In this document: positions 5,024 to 43,898 of the stretch, one piece after another
Numbering within the stretch: position 1 is the stretch's first letter
Layout of the letters: the number at the start of each line of letters is the position of its first letter
Virus record (IMG/VR): IMGVR_UViG_3300032173_000010
Location: 1 to 49,580 of that record
Origin: a virus
DNA: 49,580 nt
Reading direction: 5' to 3' (one strand)
Translations under genes and position numbers: made by a program
The notes under the pieces: model-generated
Told to the model about the DNA's origin: nothing
Databases searched by the model: none
Seen by the model: only the letters and a program-made list of their open reading frames with translations

Positions 5024-5504
5024 CCACGGTTGGACAAAAACTCGAAAGCCAATGAAGCCTGAGCAAATCAAGGCTATGTTGGATGAACTGAACGCTTCTC
5101 TATTCAAGGGAAACCTTCAGATTGAATATCATTTGTCCGCACCGGAAAGTCCTAGTTGGGGACCGCACACTTGGCTTCTGAGCTATCAGTCAGAAGGCCA
5201 AGAATGGGCAACCAGGGTTTGTTGGCTTGAGACTGGCCGTCACTTTGAAATGAGGCATGGCGGTGGCTCACAATTCGCATGGTGGATCGACACGGCGATT
5301 CTCAACGAGGTTGCTGTCAGATTCAATGGCACTATTGGGGACGACGGAATCAGCAACAAGTGGAAAGGCGAACCTAACAAGTTCAATAATTTCACTGACT
5401 ATTTGAATCTGTCGTGGGATCACGTCAAAGACCCAAACACTAAAGCTGAAATACTCAAATTGCAACGTGAGTTTATTCCCAAGGAGTTTCATGATGGTCA
5501 ATAA
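5016..5504 (+). CDS. hypothetical protein, 162 aa
   Basis: Not recognised. 162 residues rich in tryptophan and aromatic residues (SWGPHTWLLSYQ, FAWWID), suggesting a compact beta-rich fold. It overlaps the preceding gene by 8 bases and is the last gene before a hairpin at 5508-5539. No cysteine ligands, signal peptide or membrane segment. Confidence 0.6.
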   Translation: MANHGWTKTRKPMKPEQIKAMLDELNASLFKGNLQIEYHLSAPESPSWGPHTWLLSYQSEGQEWATRVCWLETGRHFEMRHGGGSQFAWWIDTAILNEVAVRFNGTIGDDGISNKWKGEPNKFNNFTDYLNLSWDHVKDPNTKAEILKLQREFIPKEFHDGQ

Positions 5505-10699: not shown

Positions 10700-12349
10700 T
10701 CACTGAGACTCTACAGGAATCTCCGGCTGAAGTTTCAATCCTCGGTGCTGAATTGCCGCCGAGATGAGTCCTTTGAACAACGGAGCGGCGTTCATTAGCC
10801 TGCTTTTGAATTCCGGGTGAGCTTGGGTGCCAATGAAATAAGGATGGATATTACGATCCAATTCCATCATTTCAATGAGTCCAGTATCAGGATTTCGACC
10901 GCTAATTTTCAGTCCACGCTTGGCATATTGGTCAGCAAACTCTGGATTGACTTCATATCGGTGGCGATGACGTTCGCTAATCAACGGCTTGCCGTAAACT
11001 TCGGCGGCAATACTATCCTTGGTCAATTCACACTCATATGACCCTAATCGCATATTGGCTGATTTTTTGTTCAGCTTTTCTTGCCCTTCAACGAAGTGAA
11101 TGACTGGATGTGGCGTTTCCTTGTTGAATTCAAGGCTATTGGCCCCGTCTAAATCGCACTCATTTCGGGCGAATTCAATAACGGCACACTGAAGACCCAG
11201 GCAAATACCTAAGAATGGAATCTTCTTCTCACGAACGTATTGAATGGCTTTAATTTTGCCCTCAGTGCCTCGATTGTCGAAGCCGCCAGGGACAACGATG
11301 CCATCCAAGCCCTCAAAGTGCTTATGAATGCCTCGAAAGTCTTTGTACTTCTCTAATTCATCGGCCCTGATCCATTTGATGTTTACACGAACATCATTGG
11401 CAATTCCGGCGTGAATCAAAGATTCCTTCAGGGACATATACGCTTCGTCGCAATTATCGTACTTGCCAAATACACCGATCTCAATGGCTGGCATATGGTT
11501 GCCAACATATTTTTCTACAACTTCACGATATTTGTGAATGCGGCAAGCACTCCGATTCAATCGGAAAAGGTCAACGAAAAGGTCGTCAACGTGCCGATCA
11601 TAAAACTCCAGCGGAACTTGATAAATGCTCTGAACGTCTGGGGCATCAAAAATACACTCACGCTTTACGTTGGTAAGCATTGAGACTTTGGCCAACAGCT
11701 TCTCTGGGATGGCTTTATCTACACGGCAGAAAATCACATCAGGTTGCAGACCATGCCGCTGAAGCTCTTTAACGCTGTTTTGGAGGGGTTTTGTCTTGAA
11801 TTCCTTGATCGTATTCACCCATAGAATGGGAGCGACCATAGCGATCAATACGTCGTCTTTGAACTTCTGTTTGAATTGTCGCATGGCTTCAAAAAAGGCG
11901 AAGCTCTCGCTATCACCAACAGTGCCGCCAATCTCGACAATAACAACATCTTTATCTTTGCCCAAATCCACCAGACGTTGTTGGATTTTATCCGTCAAGT
12001 GTGGAATAAGCTGGATAGTTTGGCCGAGGTATTTACCTGATTCTTGTTCCTCGATCAATTCCTTGTGCAACGTCCCAGACGTGCAGATGTTCATTTTGTT
12101 GACATTGATGCCAGCAATACGCTCGTAGTGACCCAGATCGAGGTCGGTTTCCGTACCATCATCGCACAGAAAACACTCCCCGTGTTCACGGGGAGCTAGA
12201 ATTCCGGCATTTGTATTCAGATACGGATCAAATTTTATAAGGGTGATATTATGCCCACGAAACTTCAGCAAGAGGCCAACACTCGCCGCCGAGACGCCCT
12301 TCCCCGTACCTGAGATCACACCACCGACAACAATTAAATACTTGCACAT
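10700..12349 (-). CDS. pyrG: CTP synthase
   Basis: A full-length CTP synthase (549 aa; E. coli 545), converting UTP to CTP with glutamine-derived ammonia. The synthetase half starts CKYLIVVGGVISGTGKGVSA (P-loop) and has KFDPYLNTNAG, HGECFLCDDG and DLDLGHYER. The amidotransferase half has the nucleophile in GICLGLQ, then HRHRYEVN and QAHPEF, so all catalytic parts appear intact. I prefer the ATG at 12349, with GGGAGCGAGC upstream, over one 12 bases further. With the class II reductase at 13047 it would raise dCTP supply. Small differences from bacterial enzymes (GVISGTGKG rather than GVVSSLGKG) indicate a divergent phage lineage. Confidence 0.95.
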   Translation of the reverse strand: MCKYLIVVGGVISGTGKGVSAASVGLLLKFRGHNITLIKFDPYLNTNAGILAPREHGECFLCDDGTETDLDLGHYERIAGINVNKMNICTSGTLHKELIEEQESGKYLGQTIQLIPHLTDKIQQRLVDLGKDKDVVIVEIGGTVGDSESFAFFEAMRQFKQKFKDDVLIAMVAPILWVNTIKEFKTKPLQNSVKELQRHGLQPDVIFCRVDKAIPEKLLAKVSMLTNVKRECIFDAPDVQSIYQVPLEFYDRHVDDLFVDLFRLNRSACRIHKYREVVEKYVGNHMPAIEIGVFGKYDNCDEAYMSLKESLIHAGIANDVRVNIKWIRADELEKYKDFRGIHKHFEGLDGIVVPGGFDNRGTEGKIKAIQYVREKKIPFLGICLGLQCAVIEFARNECDLDGANSLEFNKETPHPVIHFVEGQEKLNKKSANMRLGSYECELTKDSIAAEVYGKPLISERHRHRYEVNPEFADQYAKRGLKISGRNPDTGLIEMMELDRNIHPYFIGTQAHPEFKSRLMNAAPLFKGLISAAIQHRGLKLQPEIPVESQ

Positions 12350-12439
12350 GCTCGCTCCCACATCTCTAGTTGGCCTTTTTCCAGTTGCTTACATATGGGA
12401 GTAAAGCATAATGCAATCCGAGAAAATAAGCAAGCGATC

Positions 12440-13046: not shown

Positions 13047-15311
13047 TTATCTAATTTCGCAAGAACCACCACTACAAGCCCATTCTTGAGTTGGTTTGGT
13101 TTCGTCGGTTTCCTCGATCATCATCGAATAATCCACGTCTTTATATTCCCTCTGCAAATCTTGCCAGAGCTTCCAGTTGTGGACTTCTTTGAGGCAGTGC
13201 GTCATATGACGAGCATCGCCTTCAAAATATCGGTTAGCGAATTGGACGGCACGACGGACAAAATCCTTCTTCGCCTCCCATGAAGCATAAGCGATCTTAT
13301 ACTTGGTATGGCTGAAGATGTAATCAATTACCACTTCGCCGACCGCTGGTGTCTTGGGTTCAATCAGCGGATCGCCAAAACCAAGAACCGTTTCACAAGC
13401 TGCCCATAGATTGTCATCGAAGGCTCGTAGACCATCAACAATGAGGCCGCTGGCGAACAGACTGCCTTCGCCATACATCTGAACAATTTCACGGGAAGTG
13501 TGTACCGTACACATTGGGGCTTGGGGATAATCCAAGTCGCCCGATTGAGGAAGCAATGCAATGCCCGCAAAGAAATTCCTATTGTCGTAGATGTAGTCTG
13601 TGATGCCGTCCCATTCATCAGGGCGAACATTGATCGTATTGGAGACGTTATGAGTGAGCCACGGTTGGGTGCAAAGCTCAGGACGTGTTCCAGCCATGAC
13701 CCAATTTGCCTGTGTACTCTTAACGTGTTCCAGGAGCTTCAATGCCGACAACTGATTCTTGGTCTTCGCCCCATCGGGAACTTCAACACAGAACGTAATA
13801 ACCTCGTCGGTCTTGTTCGCACTCCACACAGATTTTTCAACAGCAAGTCCGTTGCGTTCCTTGAAGTATTGCAGCGGGGCTTCCATATAGTTGCCCTGAA
13901 TACGACGGAAATATCGCTTGGCGTGATGCGGGTGAATGCCACTGGCACTACCAAGAATACAGCTAGTCGTACCGGCTGGCTTTACGCATGTTGCACGAGC
14001 GGCTGGATTGATACCAATTTGCTTGGCCATCCACTCGTTCGTGTCCAGAATGAGCTTTGCCATTTCCTGCTGAGTCTTCTCATCGAAGATAATATCAGGA
14101 TTGTCCATCATGCCCGTAATGCTGACGCCGAGCAACGCTTCTCGTTCAACAATCTCCTTGGATGTTTGACCGAGATATTCAAAATTTGTATATGACGCCT
14201 GTAGTGTGCCAATAATGGCGGCAGCTTTAGCGGCAATGGCAAAATCTTCTTTAGTCTTAATCTTACGACCATTGATTTCGCAAAGATTACACATTTGCCA
14301 ACCAGAAACACCAGTCTTCCAGTGAACTGGCCACATGCCGATTTCAACACATGGGTTGACAAGAAAATCACGGTGGTCAGCAAATACGAATCCGGGTTCG
14401 CCGAATTCTTTTACGTCCTTCATTGCCTCTTCAAATTGCTCCTTGGTGGTTTCACCACGAATAAGCAACATAGAGTTGTTGGACCTTGCACGTTGAGGAT
14501 TGTCCGTAAACCAATTGCCAGTCTTGGCCTTACGCATATCCATATCGTCTACCGAGAACAAGCAGATGGTAGCCGAACGACGCACGCCACCACTCAACAC
14601 GGCATCGCTGGCGTGCATTACAATATCGTATGCGTCAATAGACCGCAGACGATTGAAGCGTTGGCAGCGATCATCCAGGAGCTTGCGAATGATCTCTAGC
14701 GAACGTCGCAATGGTTCTGGCCCTGGGGCTTTTCCAACACCTGATGCCAATACAGCACCGGCTGGACGAATCTCTGAGAAATCGAATGTTACATCGCAAC
14801 CATACCATTCCGAGAATTCCTCGTTAGGCATATATGTTGCCAACAAAATGCCCAAAGCATCAGACCAGCCCTCGATTGAATCGGGAATGATATGCTTTCG
14901 CTTTTTGTGAGTCTGCTCAAGAGTACGGCTTACATGGAAATCAGGCAGCTTCGCAATATGGTGATGCTGCACAGAAAAACCTGTGCCGCAACCGCACAAT
15001 AGAAGCCAGAATGTTTCCTGGAAAAACCGAACTCTGTCGCAAAATGACACACAGCAGTTGTACATGCGGGCATTTTTTTGTTCAATTGGCTTGCCGCCAA
15101 ATTGAAGCGCTCTTTGTGAGCCTAACACTAATTTCTGGTCAACCTTTTCAAATGCCGATTTAATCACTTCGGCCATGTGCGGAAACTTACGAATGTGCAT
15201 CTGCATCACTCGATCAACCGCTTCGCTCCATGTCTCTCTTCGTTTTTCTTTTTCGTTAAATCGAGCATATCTGCTGACGTAAGTGTATTCCTGTAAAGCC
15301 TTTATAGACAT
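13047..15311 (-). CDS. nrdJ: adenosylcobalamin-dependent (class II) ribonucleotide reductase
   Basis: 754 residues, the size of monomeric class II reductases of the Lactobacillus leichmannii type, which reduce ribonucleoside triphosphates using vitamin B12 and need no small subunit. Visible family features: YSR-like start region, NCCVSFCDRV with CGCGTGFSVQ, NPCVEIGMWP, MCNLCEIN, PAGTTSCILG and a C-terminal CSGGSCEIR, the redox-active cysteine tail. No nrdB gene is nearby, as expected. It supplies deoxynucleotides for phage DNA. I chose ATG 15311 (GAGG upstream) over an upstream TTG. A NrdR-like zinc ribbon is encoded at 3689. The phage depends on host-made or imported cobalamin. Confidence 0.9.
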   Translation of the reverse strand: MSIKALQEYTYVSRYARFNEKEKRRETWSEAVDRVMQMHIRKFPHMAEVIKSAFEKVDQKLVLGSQRALQFGGKPIEQKNARMYNCCVSFCDRVRFFQETFWLLLCGCGTGFSVQHHHIAKLPDFHVSRTLEQTHKKRKHIIPDSIEGWSDALGILLATYMPNEEFSEWYGCDVTFDFSEIRPAGAVLASGVGKAPGPEPLRRSLEIIRKLLDDRCQRFNRLRSIDAYDIVMHASDAVLSGGVRRSATICLFSVDDMDMRKAKTGNWFTDNPQRARSNNSMLLIRGETTKEQFEEAMKDVKEFGEPGFVFADHRDFLVNPCVEIGMWPVHWKTGVSGWQMCNLCEINGRKIKTKEDFAIAAKAAAIIGTLQASYTNFEYLGQTSKEIVEREALLGVSITGMMDNPDIIFDEKTQQEMAKLILDTNEWMAKQIGINPAARATCVKPAGTTSCILGSASGIHPHHAKRYFRRIQGNYMEAPLQYFKERNGLAVEKSVWSANKTDEVITFCVEVPDGAKTKNQLSALKLLEHVKSTQANWVMAGTRPELCTQPWLTHNVSNTINVRPDEWDGITDYIYDNRNFFAGIALLPQSGDLDYPQAPMCTVHTSREIVQMYGEGSLFASGLIVDGLRAFDDNLWAACETVLGFGDPLIEPKTPAVGEVVIDYIFSHTKYKIAYASWEAKKDFVRRAVQFANRYFEGDARHMTHCLKEVHNWKLWQDLQREYKDVDYSMMIEETDETKPTQEWACSGGSCEIR

Positions 15312-15394
15312 TTTTTTCCTCTTTCCTTCTGCCAAATCTTGGTTGGTCTTGTTTGCTGGGAAGGTAGCTAGTCGTTATGAGCCGAAATTTTTGA

Positions 15395-26449: not shown

Positions 26450-26944
26450 ATGAAAAAAATATGCGTTTTGTGCAAAAATGAATTTGACGTTCAATTCAAA
26501 TTGGACGAAGTAATCAGCTACCAACCCAAAAGAACAAGATGTTATGATTGCGTGCCTTATGAAGTAAAAAACAAAGACAACAAAAGATTGTGCAAAATAT
26601 GCAAAGAATACAAAGAAAATTCTGAATTCAGCCAAAACAGCAAGTCTGGTTATTTGCATTCATATTGCAAACCTTGCGTGGTTAAAAAATCAAAAGAGCC
26701 TAGAAGAAAATTCAAGCAAAAGTGCATTGAATACAAAGGCGGCAAATGTATTTCATGTGGTTACAATAAGTGTCAAGCGGCATTAGAGTTTCATCACAGA
26801 AATCCCAAAGAAAAAGATTTTTCTTTGAGGGATATTCCCGGTAAAACAGTTTTAACAGACAAAGTGAAGAAAGAATTAGATAAGTGCGATCTTTTGTGTT
26901 CAAATTGTCACAAAGAAAAGCATTTTTTAGGAGAAATAAAGTGA
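26450..26944 (+). CDS. HNH endonuclease directly upstream of EF-Tu
   Basis: 164 residues. Three cysteine pairs ([19 protein letters not shown]) form zinc ribbons in the first half; the HNH core has [25 protein letters not shown] and [12 protein letters not shown]. The ATG has AAGGAG 7 bases upstream. Its stop overlaps the GTG start of EF-Tu (GTGA), so EF-Tu translation may be coupled to it. The 26358-26449 stretch ahead contains a pyrimidine run of TTTTC repeats. Confidence 0.8.
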
Positions 26945-28113
26945 AGAAGGTTCATATCAATGTCGGAACGATTGGTCACATTGACCACGGAAAGACAACT
27001 CTAACCGCTGCAATTCTTGCAGTTCAAGCGGAAAAAGGTTTCGCAAAAAGAAAAGCCTACGGCGATATCGCTAAGGGCGGTACAGTTCGTGACATTACCA
27101 AAACGGTAACGATCACTACGTCGCACGTTGAGTATGAGACGGATACCCGTCACTATGCTCACATCGACTGCCCTGGTCACGCCGACTATGTTAAGAACAT
27201 GATTACCGGGGCCGCTCAAATGGACGGCGCTGTATTGCTCGTCAATGCAGCAGACGGTCCTATGCCTCAGACGAAAGAGCATATTCTGCTCGCTCGTCAG
27301 GTGGGCGTGCCGGATATTGTCGTGTTCCTCAACAAGTGTGATCTGGTTCAGGACAAAGAACTGCTCGAACTGGTCGAGATGGAAACGAGAGACTTGCTGA
27401 CGAAGTATGGCTTCGACGGCGAGAAGACTCCCTTTATCCGTGGGGCTGCAAAGCCTGCTCTGGATAACCCTGCTGATCCCGCAGCAAGCAAGTGCATCGT
27501 AGAACTGCTGGCGGCTCTGGATTCTTACATCCCGGACCCCAGCCGTGCTATTGATCGTCCTTTCTTGATGCCTATCGAGGGTGTTCACAATATCGAAGGT
27601 CGTGGCTGCGTAGTCACGGGCAAGATCGAGCAAGGAACCATCACGGTCGGAACCAAGGTTGAAATCTTGGGCCTGGGCGACATTCTGGAATCAGTTGTCA
27701 CCAGCGTCGAAGCCTTCAACAAGCAACTGGAGTTTGGTGAAGCCGGTCAGAACGTCGGATTGCTGCTGAGAGGCATCAAAGCCGATCAGGTGGAGCGTGG
27801 ACAGGTTGTGGCACAACCACGAAGCATTAAGCCTCATATCAAGTTCAAGAGCGAAATCTACGTCTTGGGCAAGGATGAGGGTGGGCGTCACACCCCGATC
27901 TTCAACGGTTACAAGCCGCAGTTCTTCTTCCGAACCACTAACGTCACCGGCCTTGTACAAATGCCGGAAGGTATTGAGTTGGTCATGCCGGGTGAGAATA
28001 CTTGCCTGTTTATCACCCTGGATAAGCCGATTGCCATCGAAAAGGGCAGTCATTTCGCTATCCGAGAGGGTGGCATGACGGTCGGTTCCGGCGTCGTGAC
28101 GGAATTGCTGTAA
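26941..28113 (+). CDS. tuf: elongation factor Tu
   Basis: A full-length EF-Tu (390 aa; bacterial 393-396) that carries aminoacyl-tRNA to the ribosome with GTP. G motifs: GHIDHGKT (12-19), DCPGH (76-80, with the catalytic His at 80), NKCD (131-134). Domains 2 and 3 are well conserved ([35 protein letters not shown]). Switch I differs: the almost invariant RGITI is KTVTI (54-58), though the Mg-binding Thr57 (E. coli Thr61) is kept. Start GTG at 26941, AGGAG 7 bases upstream, overlapping the HNH stop. The next promoter's -35 overlaps its stop codon. It may replace or outcompete host EF-Tu during infection. Confidence 0.95.
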
Positions 28114-31708: not shown

Positions 31709-32143
31709 ATGAGTACGAAAACTGGATGGACCATTGCCGGGATTTCTGCATTGTGCATTGGCGCAATGACGTGGCACACCTGGAATATTCAGAAGGAGAA
31801 TCAGCGACTCTCGCTGGTGAACTCCATCTATGATGCCGAGCATCGTATTCTCAAGGATGAAATCTCCGAGCTTGCTGGCAAGCCCACCTACGATCAGGGG
31901 TATAAAGCCGCCCTGATTCGCATCGGTGGCCCACAAATCTCCGGTGCGTATCAAGACGGCTGGGACGACGCACTGAAGCTCTGCGGTGCTGAAAACAATT
32001 ATGCAGACGGGTATCACGCCGCCATTCAGCAATTTGGCTATACTAAGACTACAGCAATGGCTCGTTGGCTCGTTCCTGAGCCGAAGGTCGCTGCTGATAA
32101 GACCAACAAGGAAGGCACTGTGCCTGCCAAGTTGGATAAGTGA
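31709..32143 (+). CDS. membrane-anchored hypothetical protein upstream of the GAC RNA
   Basis: 144 residues: one N-terminal hydrophobic helix (WTIAGISALCIGAMTW, residues 7-22), a short coiled coil (KENQRLSLVNSIYDAEHRIL) and a domain with repeats of the type YDQGYKAAL, YQDGWDDAL and YADGYHAAI, three similar units about 25 residues apart. Not recognised. GAAGGAAG precedes the ATG. No terminator separates it from the 23S-like RNA that follows, so the RNA may be processed from its 3' UTR. Confidence 0.6.
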   Translation: MSTKTGWTIAGISALCIGAMTWHTWNIQKENQRLSLVNSIYDAEHRILKDEISELAGKPTYDQGYKAALIRIGGPQISGAYQDGWDDALKLCGAENNYADGYHAAIQQFGYTKTTAMARWLVPEPKVAADKTNKEGTVPAKLDK

Positions 32144-32433
32144 GCCAAACCGCTGTAGGAAGCATTGTGAATACAATGACTACGGTAGATCGAGTGATTT
32201 AGGGGCAGGCAAGTCTTGCCCTTTGGGGAAACAAAGACAGCCAGGATGTTGGCCTAGAAGCAGTCATCATTCAAAGAGTAGGGTATATCCCGACGCAGGG
32301 CCTTCCTGTATGCGGACCCTTTTGGCGTAATAGCACACTGGCCGAGCCAACCCGACACTCGACACCGGCATTGCATTGCTGGTGCCTGGGAGCATATCAC
32401 CGAAGAAGGCTTAGGTGATATGCTCATTTTTTT
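32144..32433 (+). ncRNA. non-coding RNA carrying a 23S rRNA GTPase-associated-centre mimic
   Basis: Bases 32240-32277 and 32325-32342 match E. coli 23S rRNA 1051-1088 and 1091-1108, the 58-nt L11-binding domain, with only five substitutions. GCCAGGATGTTGGC, CTAGAAGCAGTCATCAT and GCGTAATAGCACACTGG are visible; A1067 (32256) and A1095 (32329), the thiostrepton and factor contacts, are kept. The closing helix GCCAG/CTGGC is perfect, with U1108 changed to C so that the G-U pair becomes G-C. A 47-nt insertion (32278-32324) replaces A1089-A1090 in helix 44. Flanking matches (AGACA before, CGAGCC after) extend into helix 42. Around it are hairpins at 32163-32178 and 32363-32384 and a strong terminator. 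Confidence 0.85.
32390..32433 (+). terminator. strong intrinsic terminator of the GAC RNA
   Basis: GAGCATATCACC (32390-32401) pairs perfectly with 32414-32425 and is followed by ATTTTTTTG. Confidence 0.9.
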
Positions 32434-32455: not shown

Positions 32456-32872
32456 ATGAAAACATATGATTCGGTGAACGAAAAAATTCAGACTGATTTA
32501 ACAATACTCTATCACTTTTACCTAAATCAAATCGAAGAAATCATTGCCCTTGGAGCCAATGGCAGACACGTCGATTGTGTTGAGATCATTATAAATGATG
32601 AAGAAGGAAGCGAAAGCTACATAGGAGGGTTTTCACTCCATGAGTTGTTGCCCAAAATAGAAGAATATGACCCTTCAGGGTTAGTCGCAAATAAAATCAA
32701 AAAGACTGACTTTCAACGAAACATATTGATTATTTACTGGCGTCAAAATGATGGCTTGGCTATGGCTGTACATCCAAGGCGTCAAAATGATGGCTTGGAT
32801 GTCGATCCAAGAAAACCAGCCTCAGATGGGCAGCACAAACATCGTGCATTACCGAAAAGAACAGTGAAATGA
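32456..32872 (+). CDS. hypothetical protein with internal repeat, 138 aa
   Basis: 138 residues, acidic N-terminal 90 residues with alternating helices and strands, then two copies of RRQNDGL/WRQNDGL caused by a 21-base direct repeat (32739-32759 and 32778-32798). The repeat-derived C-terminus (HPRRQNDGLDVDPRKP) looks like recent expansion, unlike the rest. Not recognised. AAGAGACG precedes the ATG. The end overlaps the next gene (ATGA). Confidence 0.5.
   Translation: MKTYDSVNEKIQTDLTILYHFYLNQIEEIIALGANGRHVDCVEIIINDEEGSESYIGGFSLHELLPKIEEYDPSGLVANKIKKTDFQRNILIIYWRQNDGLAMAVHPRRQNDGLDVDPRKPASDGQHKHRALPKRTVK
32739..32798 (+). repeat. 21-base direct repeat inside a gene
   Basis: GGCGTCAAAATGATGGCTTG plus one G occurs at 32739-32759 and again at 32778-32798, with ATCCAA after each copy; consistent with a tandem duplication that kept the reading frame. 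Confidence 0.85.
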
Positions 32873-33051
32873 TTGCTTGTATTTGTGGCGGCTTTTTAGA
32901 AATTGGTTATATCCTCGTGATGGCACTTCTTTCTATTTCTGGAGCCGTATTCGGCACCAACTGGTACAATAAAGCCAGATACAAGAAGTACATAGAATAC
33001 AAGAACAAACACAAAGGTTGTCATTGCGACTGTCATAAAGATGAACATTAA
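32869..33051 (+). CDS. small membrane protein with His/Cys tail, 60 aa
   Basis: 60 residues: one hydrophobic helix (IGYILVMALLSISGAVFG) and a basic tail ending GCHCDCHKDEH, which could bind a metal. Overlaps both neighbours. Not recognised. Confidence 0.5.
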   Translation: MIACICGGFLEIGYILVMALLSISGAVFGTNWYNKARYKKYIEYKNKHKGCHCDCHKDEH

Positions 33052-35021: not shown

Positions 35022-35243
35022 ATGGCCGTTGAAACGGATATTACAAAGCGATGGGAACAAGGGATGCCCCATCATCCCAAGAGCATTGCTTTGTTCAAGA
35101 AACTTGCAGAAATAGACTTCAAGTTTGGTGGAGACTACTTCTGTTGGAAGTCAGGTGGTGATGGAGACAACGGCGAACATCTAATGTACGAAATGGACAT
35201 TATGTTCGACACCCAAGATGCCGAAATAGGAGTTGCATTATGA
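35022..35243 (+). CDS. hypothetical protein, 73 aa
   Basis: 73 acidic residues, starting one base after the lipoprotein stop codon and overlapping the synthetase start (ATGA) by 4 bases. KRWEQGMPHHPKSIALFKKL is an amphipathic helix; the rest is short strands. Not recognised, but its position makes it part of the same set. Confidence 0.5.
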   Translation: MAVETDITKRWEQGMPHHPKSIALFKKLAEIDFKFGGDYFCWKSGGDGDNGEHLMYEMDIMFDTQDAEIGVAL

Positions 35244-36385
35244 AACGTCACATAACTGATCTTCGGCCCGACTGGAAAAAGACCGTCGAAGGTCAGGGCA
35301 TGTTGTTTCATACATTCGATGGCGATATTTATTGGGATGAATCGGCATACTACGAATTTGATGCTGCCGAGATAAACGCCATCGAAGCGGCGAGTTACGA
35401 ACTGAATGATCGTTGTCTTGAGGCCGTCCAGCACGTCATCGACAACAATCTCTTCGATGCCTTCTTGATCCCGCCCGAATTCCATCAGTTCATTCGTGAC
35501 AGTTGGGAACACGACGAACACACCATTTATGGTCGGTTCGATTTTTCCTACGACGGAAAAACCCAACCCAAAATGTTGGAATACAACGCCGACACGCCGA
35601 CTGGCCTGATCGAAGCCGCTGTCACCCAATGGTATTGGGCCAAAGATAAATTCCCGACTCGCAACCAGTTCAACTCAATCCACGAACGACTGATTGAAGT
35701 TTGGAAAGAACTGAAGGCTGTCACGCCAGGAGTATTGTACTTCACGGCACTTGCTGGCAATCTCGAAGACTACATGAACGTCAATTATCTCCGTGACACT
35801 GCCATCCAAGCTGGCTGGGAGACGGAATATATTGACATTGAGAATATTGGATGGAACGAAGGTCGCCGCACATTCACCGACCTGAATGAAAACCCCATTC
35901 AAACCTGCTTCAAACTGTATCCGTGGGAATGGATGCAGACTGACGAGTTCGGCAAAAAGCTGTTCCTTAAAACAAGCAAATGGCTTGAGGCTCCTTGGAA
36001 GGCACTCTTGAGCAACAAGGCAATTCTGCCTGTGTTGTGGGAGTTGTTTCCAGATCATCCGAACCTATTGGAAGCATCATTCCAGCCGCTTCGCACTAAG
36101 CCTTACGTTCAGAAGCCTATTCTGAGTCGTGAGGGTGCCAATGTGCAAATATTTGAGCATGGGGAATTGTTGCTCAAAACTGATGGCCCTTATGATGGTC
36201 CGTGTGTATATCAACACCTTTGGGAATTGCCCAATTTTGACGGCAACCACGCCTGCATTGGGAGTTGGATGGTCAATGGCTGGGCATGTGGAATTGGCAT
36301 TCGAGAAGACAAAACCCTTGTGACGGGGAACATGAGTCGATTCGTGCCACACATTTTCGGTGTTCGGCCAAAATACGGAAATTAG
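35240..36385 (+). CDS. glutathionylspermidine-synthase-like ATP-grasp ligase (YjfC/YgiC-like)
   Basis: 381 residues, the length of YjfC/YgiC (about 386), which lack the amidase half of E. coli Gsp. Family blocks: YGRFDFSYDG, KMLEYNADTPTGLIEA, YFTALAGNLEDY, LYPWEWM, WKALLSNKAILPVLWELFP, REGANVQI and the final GNMSRFVPHIF. The fold joins an amine or amino acid to a carboxylate using ATP. In bacteria these genes go with DUF350 and DUF1190 lipoproteins, as here, which suggests modification of a membrane protein or a peptide rather than trypanothione-type metabolism. Substrate unknown. Confidence 0.85.
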   Translation: MKRHITDLRPDWKKTVEGQGMLFHTFDGDIYWDESAYYEFDAAEINAIEAASYELNDRCLEAVQHVIDNNLFDAFLIPPEFHQFIRDSWEHDEHTIYGRFDFSYDGKTQPKMLEYNADTPTGLIEAAVTQWYWAKDKFPTRNQFNSIHERLIEVWKELKAVTPGVLYFTALAGNLEDYMNVNYLRDTAIQAGWETEYIDIENIGWNEGRRTFTDLNENPIQTCFKLYPWEWMQTDEFGKKLFLKTSKWLEAPWKALLSNKAILPVLWELFPDHPNLLEASFQPLRTKPYVQKPILSREGANVQIFEHGELLLKTDGPYDGPCVYQHLWELPNFDGNHACIGSWMVNGWACGIGIREDKTLVTGNMSRFVPHIFGVRPKYGN

Positions 36386-42515: not shown

Positions 42516-43898
42516 ATGAGCAACAACCCTGTTGACGAACGCCGAGCCAAGTTAGACGATCTAAAGGCCAAGGGACACCGGCCTTTCGATATGTCCATTA
42601 TTGATCCAGCACCAACGAACATTGATATTGTTCGTGACAGCTTTGATGCCTCTTTCACCAAGGAAGATGGCCCGGAGTTTGTTATTGTTGGTCGGTGTGC
42701 GCTCAAGCGGGGTCATGGAAAGCTGTCCTTCCTCACCATTACAAGTGAGGATGGACAAATTCAAGTTGCTATCGACCAGTCTAAGTTTGCTGGTCCTGTA
42801 GCCCAACGATGGGATTGGCCACAATACGAAGCGTTGGACCTGGGGGATATTGTCGCCGTAAAGGGTCGTCTGGCCGCTACTCAGCGTGGCGAAATTACCA
42901 TTTGGGCTGATGCGTTTCGTATTGCCTCTAAGGCTCTCACGCCACCGCCAGACAAGGTTCACGGGTTAAATGACCCGGAACTCAAGTATCGTCTTCGTCA
43001 CGTTGATATGTGGACCAACCCGGACACCATGAAGGTGTTTCGGCAGCGATCCAATATTATTCGTGATATTCGCACGATGATGTATGATCGTGGCTTCGAT
43101 GAAGTCGAAACTCCAATCCTGCAAGCGTCGGCTGGTGGTGCTATCGCCAAGCCATTCATGACACATCACAATGCCCTCGATATTGGCATGTTCCTTCGTA
43201 TTGCTCCTGAGCTATATCTGAAGAAGTTGCTCATTGGTGGCATGAACAAGGTCTTCGAGATCGGCAAGAACTTCCGCAATGAAGGCGTCAGCCCTCGCCA
43301 CAACCCTGAATTCACGTCTATGGAGGCTTACCAAGCCTTCGGCAACTACGAGACGATGATGAAGCTGGTTGAGGCTCTTGTCGTCAACCAAGTGGAAAAG
43401 ATTCACGGTCGCCTGACGGATATCCCCTACAAGGAACATCTGCTAAACTTCACGCCGCCGTTCAAGCGAGTATCTTTGCAAGAACTGGTTGAAAACGGTT
43501 CGCCTGAGCAGCGATTCCAGGCATACGAAGACACGATTGAATCAACACTGATTCAACCAACCTTTGTTATGCACATGCCTGCTAGTGTAGTGCCATTGGC
43601 ACGACCATTTGATGATATAAACCAAGGATACGCAGAGACGTTTGAACTGGTCATTGGCGGCATGGAAATTGCGCCAGGATATACCGAGTTGAATGACCCG
43701 GATATTCAACTGGAAAATTTCCAAAAGCAAGCCAAGGACGGTCACGTTATGGATCAAGACTTCGTAGATGCCATAAAGACAGGTATGCCTCCGGCTGGCG
43801 GTCTTGGACTTGGCATCGACCGTCTTGTGGCTATCCTGACTAATCAGGCTACCATTCGAGACGTAATTGCATTCCCACTATTAAGGCCGAGGGACTAA
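42516..43898 (+). CDS. lysS: lysyl-tRNA synthetase, class II
   Basis: 460 residues (E. coli 505). N-terminal OB-fold for anticodon binding (residues 55-150: VIVGRCALKRGHGKLSFL, ALDLGDIVAVKG, ELTI-type strand EITIWAD). Catalytic core: RSNIIRDIRTMMYDRGFDEVETPIL (motif 1 region), VFEIGKNFRNEGVSPRHNPE (motif 2, arginine present), EMAP-type block GGMEIAPGYTELNDP and GGLGLGIDRLVAILT (motif 3 with GxDR). All active-site blocks appear intact, so it should charge tRNA-Lys. No tRNA-Lys gene is in the window; it may serve a host tRNA or one elsewhere. Overlaps the next gene by one base. Confidence 0.93.
   Translation: MSNNPVDERRAKLDDLKAKGHRPFDMSIIDPAPTNIDIVRDSFDASFTKEDGPEFVIVGRCALKRGHGKLSFLTITSEDGQIQVAIDQSKFAGPVAQRWDWPQYEALDLGDIVAVKGRLAATQRGEITIWADAFRIASKALTPPPDKVHGLNDPELKYRLRHVDMWTNPDTMKVFRQRSNIIRDIRTMMYDRGFDEVETPILQASAGGAIAKPFMTHHNALDIGMFLRIAPELYLKKLLIGGMNKVFEIGKNFRNEGVSPRHNPEFTSMEAYQAFGNYETMMKLVEALVVNQVEKIHGRLTDIPYKEHLLNFTPPFKRVSLQELVENGSPEQRFQAYEDTIESTLIQPTFVMHMPASVVPLARPFDDINQGYAETFELVIGGMEIAPGYTELNDPDIQLENFQKQAKDGHVMDQDFVDAIKTGMPPAGGLGLGIDRLVAILTNQATIRDVIAFPLLRPRD

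Follow-up and report, generated by a model that had tools for sequence, protein, structure and literature searches.

RNA mimicry of rRNA is found in the leaders of ribosomal-protein operons (for example the L10 leader), and phages carry large noncoding RNAs such as GOLLD, ROOL and HEARO, which often lie near tRNAs. Huge phages also encode parts of the translation apparatus, including tRNAs, EF-Tu, L7/L12 and S21. To our knowledge, rRNA mimicry is known in the leaders of ribosomal-protein genes but not as a widespread, trans-acting RNA of phages. A literature search, with preprints and most subscription journals outside its scope, found no paper on a phage-encoded RNA resembling the GTPase-associated centre (GAC, helices 42–44 of 23S rRNA). 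The words 'rRNA', 'noncoding' and 'L11' do not occur in the main text of the huge-phage paper (PMC7162821), nor do 'rRNA' and '23S' in the phage XaC1 paper (PMC11273794).

Here we describe such an RNA in IMGVR_UViG_3300032173_000010, a linear IMG/VR record of a bacterial virus whose 49,580 bases, analyzed as a whole, we call the window; helices 42–44 are copied at 32240–32342. The RNA resembles the GAC of 23S rRNA in the sequence of these helices, their covarying pairs, the tertiary pair 1082–1086 and the loops containing A1067 and A1095, and, within the window's clade, also in the flanks of the kink-turn. It differs in being a free-standing gene, in carrying an arm at 1090/1091, in scoring below the Rfam cut-off, and in pairing U1090 with A1101 (93 of 96 relatives), whereas the 23S rRNA of L026 and L318 has U1101, as bacterial 23S rRNA commonly does. 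Some of the longer arms, but not that of the window, also resemble the sarcin–ricin loop (helix 95) through a AGUACGAGAGGA hairpin. Like L10-type leaders, the RNA copies a ribosomal-protein site outside the ribosome, but where we read it, it does not lie upstream of ribosomal protein genes; instead, it has its own terminator or lies between tRNAs, and no uL11 gene accompanies it in 34 of 34 large records. Like GOLLD, ROOL and HEARO it is structured, phage-borne and often tRNA-adjacent, but it has no Rfam match at gathering cut-offs. The window shares the character of huge phages in having 11 tRNAs, EF-Tu and a class II tRNA synthetase, although the translation genes of those phages are proteins and tRNAs.

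The GAC fold and its helix 44 arm in the window

The original prediction, of a GAC mimic with an insertion in helix 44, was borne out by the Rfam alignment and by covarying GAC pairs in relatives. The bacterial LSU model RF02541 matched 32222–32355 (32.7 bits, E = 4e-8); with a gathering cut-off of 50 and only model positions 1074–1162 covered, the RNA falls outside that family, and the alignment collapses 56 extra bases at helix 44. We take E. coli numbering to place G1087 at 32276, G1089 at 32278, U1090 at 32279 and G1091 at 32325. On this numbering, the insertion is 32280–32324, 45 nucleotides between 1090 and 1091 that comprise a 41-nucleotide arm and UUUG. It lies inside helix 44 and leaves both factor-contact loops intact, as had been proposed, but it is not a 47-nucleotide segment replacing A1089–A1090, because 32278–32279 are G1089 and U1090 themselves. 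GAGU is the usual form in bacteria and is present in the true 23S rRNA of L318, so nothing in the window has been 'replaced'.

Table 1. Positions in the window of the RNA, its parts and the linked EF-Tu gene.
Feature	Position	Strand	Basis
Phage EF-Tu gene, three domains	26884–28113	+	Pfam PF00009, PF03144, PF03143; linked to the RNA in the clade
Whole conserved noncoding RNA (probable transcript, ends inferred)	32145–32433	+	Aligns with L381 and L382 to a shared terminator
GACA, 5′ side of helix 42 kink-turn	32236–32239	+	Sequence; kept in L002, L382, L007, L008, L010
Helix 42 5′ strand (1051–1055)	32240–32244	+	Pairs with 32338–32342
Helix 43 (1057–1081), A1067 at 32256	32246–32270	+	Family covariation of 1057–1081 and 1058–1080
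1082–1090: U1082/A1086 tertiary pair, G1087, U1090	32271–32279	+	1082–1086 Watson–Crick in 88/96 relatives
Inserted arm (base helix 32280–32284/32316–32320; inner hairpin 32295–32309)	32280–32320	+	Family covariation; close relatives
UUUG joining strand, three-way junction	32321–32324	+	T92/T95/T94, G85+A11 among 96 relatives
Helix 44 distal hairpin GCGUAAUAGC plus A1101, C1102; A1095 at 32329	32325–32336	+	Sequence; family
CGAG, 3′ side of helix 42 kink-turn	32343–32346	+	Sequence; CGAG or TGAG in the same relatives
Intrinsic terminator	32390–32433	+	12-bp stem, 12-nt loop, T run; read from sequence

The window belongs to a clade with L002 (also L381), L382/L383, L007, L008 and L010, in which the kink-turn flanks read GACA or GATA and CGAG or TGAG; in 23S rRNA we take this kink-turn to be the uL10 site. 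L382 and L383 differ at three positions over the locus. Both L381 and L382 align along the entire window RNA, with the middle of the arm as the most variable part. Where helices 43 and 44 are linked, L381 carries a second insertion, and L382 shows a compensated helix 44 change (1092–1099 as U-A) as well as compensatory changes in the stem of the terminator, which we read by eye in the window (its loop is too long for the terminator scanner).

To assess covariation we used the 96 of 111 distinct relatives (described below) that have standard spacing; 15 with another linker length or sequence were dropped, and the window is not included. Helix 42 covaries throughout, 1058–1080 is paired in 94 of the 96, and the Watson–Crick forms of the tertiary pair 1082–1086 are TA (48), CG (29) and AT (11). 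The pairs 1087–1102, 1091–1100, 1092–1099 and 1060/1088 are near-constant and uninformative on covariation, and 1061–1070 shows none (56 of 96, against 56.2 with shuffling). Position 1101 is A in every relative. Each loop position was counted only in members that the pattern of the other loop was able to find: of 51 members carrying GCGTAATAGC, 43 have A and 7 have G at 1067, and of 85 with the helix 43 search pattern, 80 have A at 1095.

At the base of the arm, the proposed pairing of AGGGT with ACCCT (32280–32284 with 32316–32320) is supported by the family: pairs 1, 2 and 3 are present in 96, 95 and 89 of the 96 relatives, respectively, against 59.2, 57.4 and 43.9 with partners shuffled, and none of 1000 shuffles reached the native count for these pairs, although these statistics ignore kinship among the sequences. 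The fourth pair forms in 65 (37.4 shuffled), pairs 5 to 7 have no covariation support in the 96 sequences, and the base helix shows several pair types. The first five pairs fill 384 of 480 cells in register, compared with 185–291 when slid by 1–3 columns, and an independent count on 98 sequences gave a stem score of 11.45 for native and 9.05 for swapped partners (sd 0.25; best of 300, 9.89). The last four bases ahead of G1091 are UUUG or UUUA with few exceptions. Because UUUG is near-invariant while 1086 is A, G or U covarying with 1082, we rejected the suggestion that CAAA/TTTG pairing lengthens the helix. An inner CAGG/CCTG hairpin is indeed possible, as GCAGG/CCUGU (32295–32309) in the window and, clearly, as ACAGG/CCUGU in L382; it can still form in L381 but is less well kept in L381/L002.

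Because the base of the arm covaries together with the known GAC pairs, these RNAs constitute a structured phage RNA family. The window is in the same register as the 96 relatives in which helices 42–44 and the tertiary pair covary, and it has the insertion at 1090/1091, the covarying base helix and UUUG/A before G1091. Comparison of the relatives thus shows that the structured noncoding RNA encoded at 32145–32433 belongs to a large phage family keeping the GAC fold, that an arm between 1090 and 1091 is present always or nearly always in the family, and that helix 44 is a three-way junction (proximal helix 44, arm and distal hairpin) closed by UUUG/A. As judged from these alignments, the insertion first noticed in the window is real, and is neither due to chance nor peculiar to one phage.

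The fold was not recovered by single-sequence folding of the window and long-armed RNAs; for the window RNA, thermodynamics gave another fold at -33.5 kcal/mol, against -28.7 kcal/mol with the GAC and arm pairs as constraint. ARAGORN and Rfam found no tRNA or tmRNA on 32145–32433, no other Rfam family matched the window RNA at its gathering cut-off, and a folP match on the opposite strand (13.5 bits, cut-off 99) was dismissed as chance. No sigma-70-like promoter was found near the window RNA. A 114-codon ORF overlaps at 31986–32330, but indels of 20, 4, 7 and 11 among close relatives speak against coding, and the indels between the window RNA and L381/L382 have lengths that are not multiples of three. 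A group I intron, whose catalytic core takes ~200 nucleotides or more, was rejected on the length of the arms (41 nucleotides in the window, from 29 in the family) and the lack of an Rfam match. We also rejected a ribosomal-protein leader: the downstream ORF (32456–32872) has no Pfam match and is separated from the RNA by the terminator. That ORF, located between the terminator and ORF 32869–33051, is missing there in L381 and L382, and contains a direct repeat, GGCGTCAAAATGATGGCTTGG, near 32740–32800.

A phage family with variable arms

Relatives came from scanning viral contigs, and once genome contigs, for sequence patterns, and all counts are lower bounds. From at least 147 candidates, 19 with fewer than seven paired helix 42 positions or more than five pattern mismatches were dropped, which left at least 128; the window, L002, L007 and L010 stand outside this set, their helix 42 being short before the kink-turn. 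At least 111 relatives are distinct, with arms of 29–445 nucleotides (median 131) at the same place; viral contigs contribute 98 of them, genome contigs 11 and cultured phages 2.

A scan for helix 43 only, unbiased towards the insertion, took in 119 loci with 120 places, of which 25 were not GAC by our script filter (five of these, L236, L265, L269, L270 and L302, resemble by eye GAC cores that the filter missed). Of the 95 GAC-like places, 92 had the arm, two were truncated where the fetched DNA stops, and L225 alone was armless. Homologues lacking the insertion or its pairing had been named in advance as the finding that would speak against the arm; the relatives instead show the arm in nearly every GAC-like place, and covariation within it. 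L225, the single such case among the matches listed, is a GAC-like RNA ~60 nucleotides before a tRNA-like sequence and may be an ancestral or reduced form; because its core stands without an arm, the arm is not indispensable everywhere. The insertion is absent from true 23S genes (L026 and the record behind L318). One phage contig (L265) has two GAC-with-arm RNAs in tandem, at 5131 and 5449.

On genome contigs, 24 stretches match TTTGGCGTAANAGCACAC, and 14 have helix 43 upstream; Rfam found tRNAs and no rRNA on these 14, and called no rRNA on any of the 17 loci scanned. A further stretch, L343, has the 3′ part only, together with an arm motif that recurs. The RNA is also present in the cultured phages GAP32 (host Cronobacter), CBB (Pectobacterium), XbC2, Kaldavass, BF, six pEa_SNUABM phages, XaC1, UNO-G1W1 and pf16 (both Pseudomonas), Astolliot, Milchi, 4_4572 and XacN1 (Xanthomonas). 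The complete RNA was read in GAP32, CBB, UNO-G1W1, pf16, 4_4572, XacN1, XaC1 and Astolliot; the others are represented by a blast row only. The rows of these records have no RNA annotation at the element, and Kaldavass, Milchi and UNO-G1W1 have a 'hypothetical protein' annotated under it. When searched against the phage collection, the window RNA retrieved only rRNA-like pieces, and two further members used as queries had no match.

In general the arms are not additional 23S rRNA sequence: local alignment scores average 10.2, against 9.9 for shuffled arms. Ahead of any directed search, one-mismatch matches to AGTACGAGAGGA were present in 2 of 107 arms (mean for shuffles 0.02), and at up to two mismatches a sarcin–ricin match occurs in 7 of 111 (shuffled mean 1.19). 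A targeted scan for AGTACGNRAGGA lying 65–95 bases before TTGGCGTA returned 11 viral stretches, of which eight are family members and six of those distinct (over the stretch compared, L346 matches L296 and L352 matches L349; the helix 43 match of L345 is weak), whereas a mirrored control motif returned 14 stretches and no members. A sarcin–ricin-like hairpin is thus found in at least six distinct long arms: the exact AGUACGAGAGGA hairpin in L345, L348, L349 and L352, and GNRA variants in L253, L296, L346 and L350; the window arm has no AGUACGAGAGGA hairpin. By eye, each of the six presents the motif in a hairpin whose stem differs from those of the others. Also by eye, L253, L296, L345 and L348 have an upstream CGUACUA able to pair with the motif instead, so that these four may form a pseudoknot and not a true sarcin–ricin loop; no CGUACUA-like partner was seen in L349 and L350. 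Two other arm modules recur: CACCCCGNAANYGGUAAGG, a small hairpin before the 3′ base of the arm, in 24 of 111 (for example L308, L134 and L320) and also in L356, and one starting GUGCRAAAUG in 10 of 111.

tRNA arrays and EF-Tu around the RNA

Members lie in or close to tRNA arrays. ARAGORN found at least one tRNA on the loci of 82 of the 111 members, and in all 82 the RNA is on the same strand as the nearest tRNA, with a median gap of 8.5 nucleotides (498.5 for random positions); 52 of the 82 are within 100 nucleotides of a tRNA, compared with 31% of random positions. In UNO-G1W1 the RNA exactly fills the gap between tRNA-Trp and tRNA-Arg, in pf16 it is flanked by tRNA-Asn and tRNA-Pro, and in XacN1 it has a promoter-like site upstream (9 of 12 matches) and a terminator read downstream. 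In the window the RNA is ~6 kb downstream of the tRNA cluster. The window also has genes for CTP synthase (10700–12361), ribonucleotide reductase (13047–15335), glutathionylspermidine synthase (35240–36385) and the class II tRNA synthetase, of D/K/N type (42516–43898).

We searched for protein partners in 34 large RNA-bearing records, chosen by size from more than 100 loci. The uL11 search was positive in 14 of 14 control genomes and negative in all 34 records, and a phage-encoded uL11 partner was accordingly rejected; because the phages supply no uL11, the partner would be the host protein. L12 scored above its cut-off in six of the 34, mostly as half-domain matches. Full L12 domains occur in G003 (L008) at 186003–186209 and G024 (L266) at 131047–131247, with half-domain L12-like matches in several more.

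Each of the six distinct members of the window's clade has an EF-Tu gene 4.4–7.0 kb upstream of the RNA and in the same orientation; the copy in L010/L408 is split over several frames. PF00009 was found in 5 of the 34 large records, four of them from this clade and the fifth with a 695-codon EF-G-like frame. EF-Tu cannot be the general partner, because 30 of the 34 records lack it, including the one with the EF-G-like gene. Scanning with the window's EF-Tu yielded 31 loci. Twelve, including the window, have a divergent switch I (L408, among them, was read only via its broken frames), and seven of the twelve carry the RNA. L384, L388, L389 and L390 have no GAC RNA despite 10 kb of downstream sequence, L387 has no room for one downstream, and the whole records of these five gave no helix 43 match. 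A further 13 EF-Tu records were likewise without a GAC RNA; their switch I is of the usual PEExxRG type in 10 and was not read in three, and G047 gave one isolated match with three mismatches. With all clade members linked and the other EF-Tu records that we searched lacking the RNA, the link is strong in one clade and absent elsewhere.

Possible functions

Our preferred reading, in which we have about even confidence, is that the RNA is a free-standing ribosomal decoy, whose GAC core captures uL11 or offers a factor surface, whose arm is an exchangeable module, and whose effect is to blunt the RelA response. The core would capture uL11 of the host, and in the window's clade, where the kink-turn is present, perhaps also uL10–bL12, while presenting the surface on which translation GTPases and RelA dock; the arm would add a second contact and keep the RNA from passing as rRNA, and may, as first suggested, bind protein or alter the affinity for L11. 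The most useful effect of the RNA might be a dampened stringent response and a biased factor centre in the infected cell: uncharged tRNAs from the phage arrays would otherwise set off RelA, which perhaps is kept silent. We stress this effect because the genes sit in tRNA arrays and because, according to one study, uL11 is indispensable for RelA whereas its loss is only moderately felt by EF-G (PMC5365698). As uL11 is abundant and ribosome-bound, titrating it would need high RNA levels or capture of the newly made protein. In the window's clade, the RNA may act together with the phage's own EF-Tu.

A rather doubtful alternative is that the RNA is a portable factor-binding centre that directly engages RelA or translation GTPases (EF-Tu, EF-G or IF2, of phage or host origin), with uL11 as only a helper and a sarcin–ricin-like contact added by long arms. 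The EF-Tu gene upstream in six of six clade members speaks for it, as does the sarcin–ricin motif AGTACGNRAGGA at its set spacing before TTGGCGTA (8 of 11 viral stretches are members, against 0 of 14 for the mirrored motif); yet the 41-nucleotide arm of the window and most other arms lack the hairpin, and arms overall are not rRNA-like. The position of members in tRNA arrays would also suit an RNA whose A1067 loop stacks on the elbow of the array's tRNAs to protect, sort or sequester them, particularly as C56 of the tRNA stacks on A1067 in the starved complex on the ribosome, according to the same study (PMC5365698). This idea we consider improbable, because elbow contact alone would not need a whole GAC fold with 1082–1086 and U1060/A1088.

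It is similarly unlikely that the RNA is a target-site decoy for a host defence enzyme attacking the factor-binding centre or the sarcin–ricin loop. The loop sequences are kept, but the sarcin–ricin hairpin is missing in most members, and we know of no defence nuclease that attacks the GAC. Phage tRNAs have been described as an answer to tRNA-cleaving defences (PMC12409363). A neutral remnant, an assembly chimera or a mobile element in a stray rRNA piece would account for the overall resemblance to 23S rRNA and for the highly variable length and sequence of the arm. We nonetheless regard this as very improbable: unless the alignments are wrong, covariation of core and arm refutes a neutral remnant, chance or a pseudogene; the RNA occurs in unrelated contigs and cultured genomes; the insertion point is constant and UUUG/A near-invariant; and none of the 17 loci drew an rRNA call.

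More tentative than the decoy reading is the broader proposal that the ribosome's factor-binding site has been made portable: a GAC core with a helix 44 arm that would serve as a socket for plug-in modules (in several lineages a sarcin–ricin loop), so that, in the infected cell, RelA or translation factors, which in the window's clade would be the phage EF-Tu, are docked or trapped away from the ribosome. One small RNA would then hold both rRNA elements touched by translation GTPases. Should the decoy reading be right, phages would have an RNA-based means of countering the stringent response or the translation factor centre, and the family would provide a large natural set of small GAC variants for ribosome biochemistry. 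The idea can be tested directly because cultured phages carry the RNA.

A further observation concerns the phage EF-Tu itself. In the window's protein and those of L376, L377 and L378, switch I reads IAKGGTxRD..K.VTI instead of PEExxRGITI. The divergence falls at what we take to be the site of cutting by the Lit protease (Gly59/Ile60), so the phage EF-Tu may be resistant to Lit.
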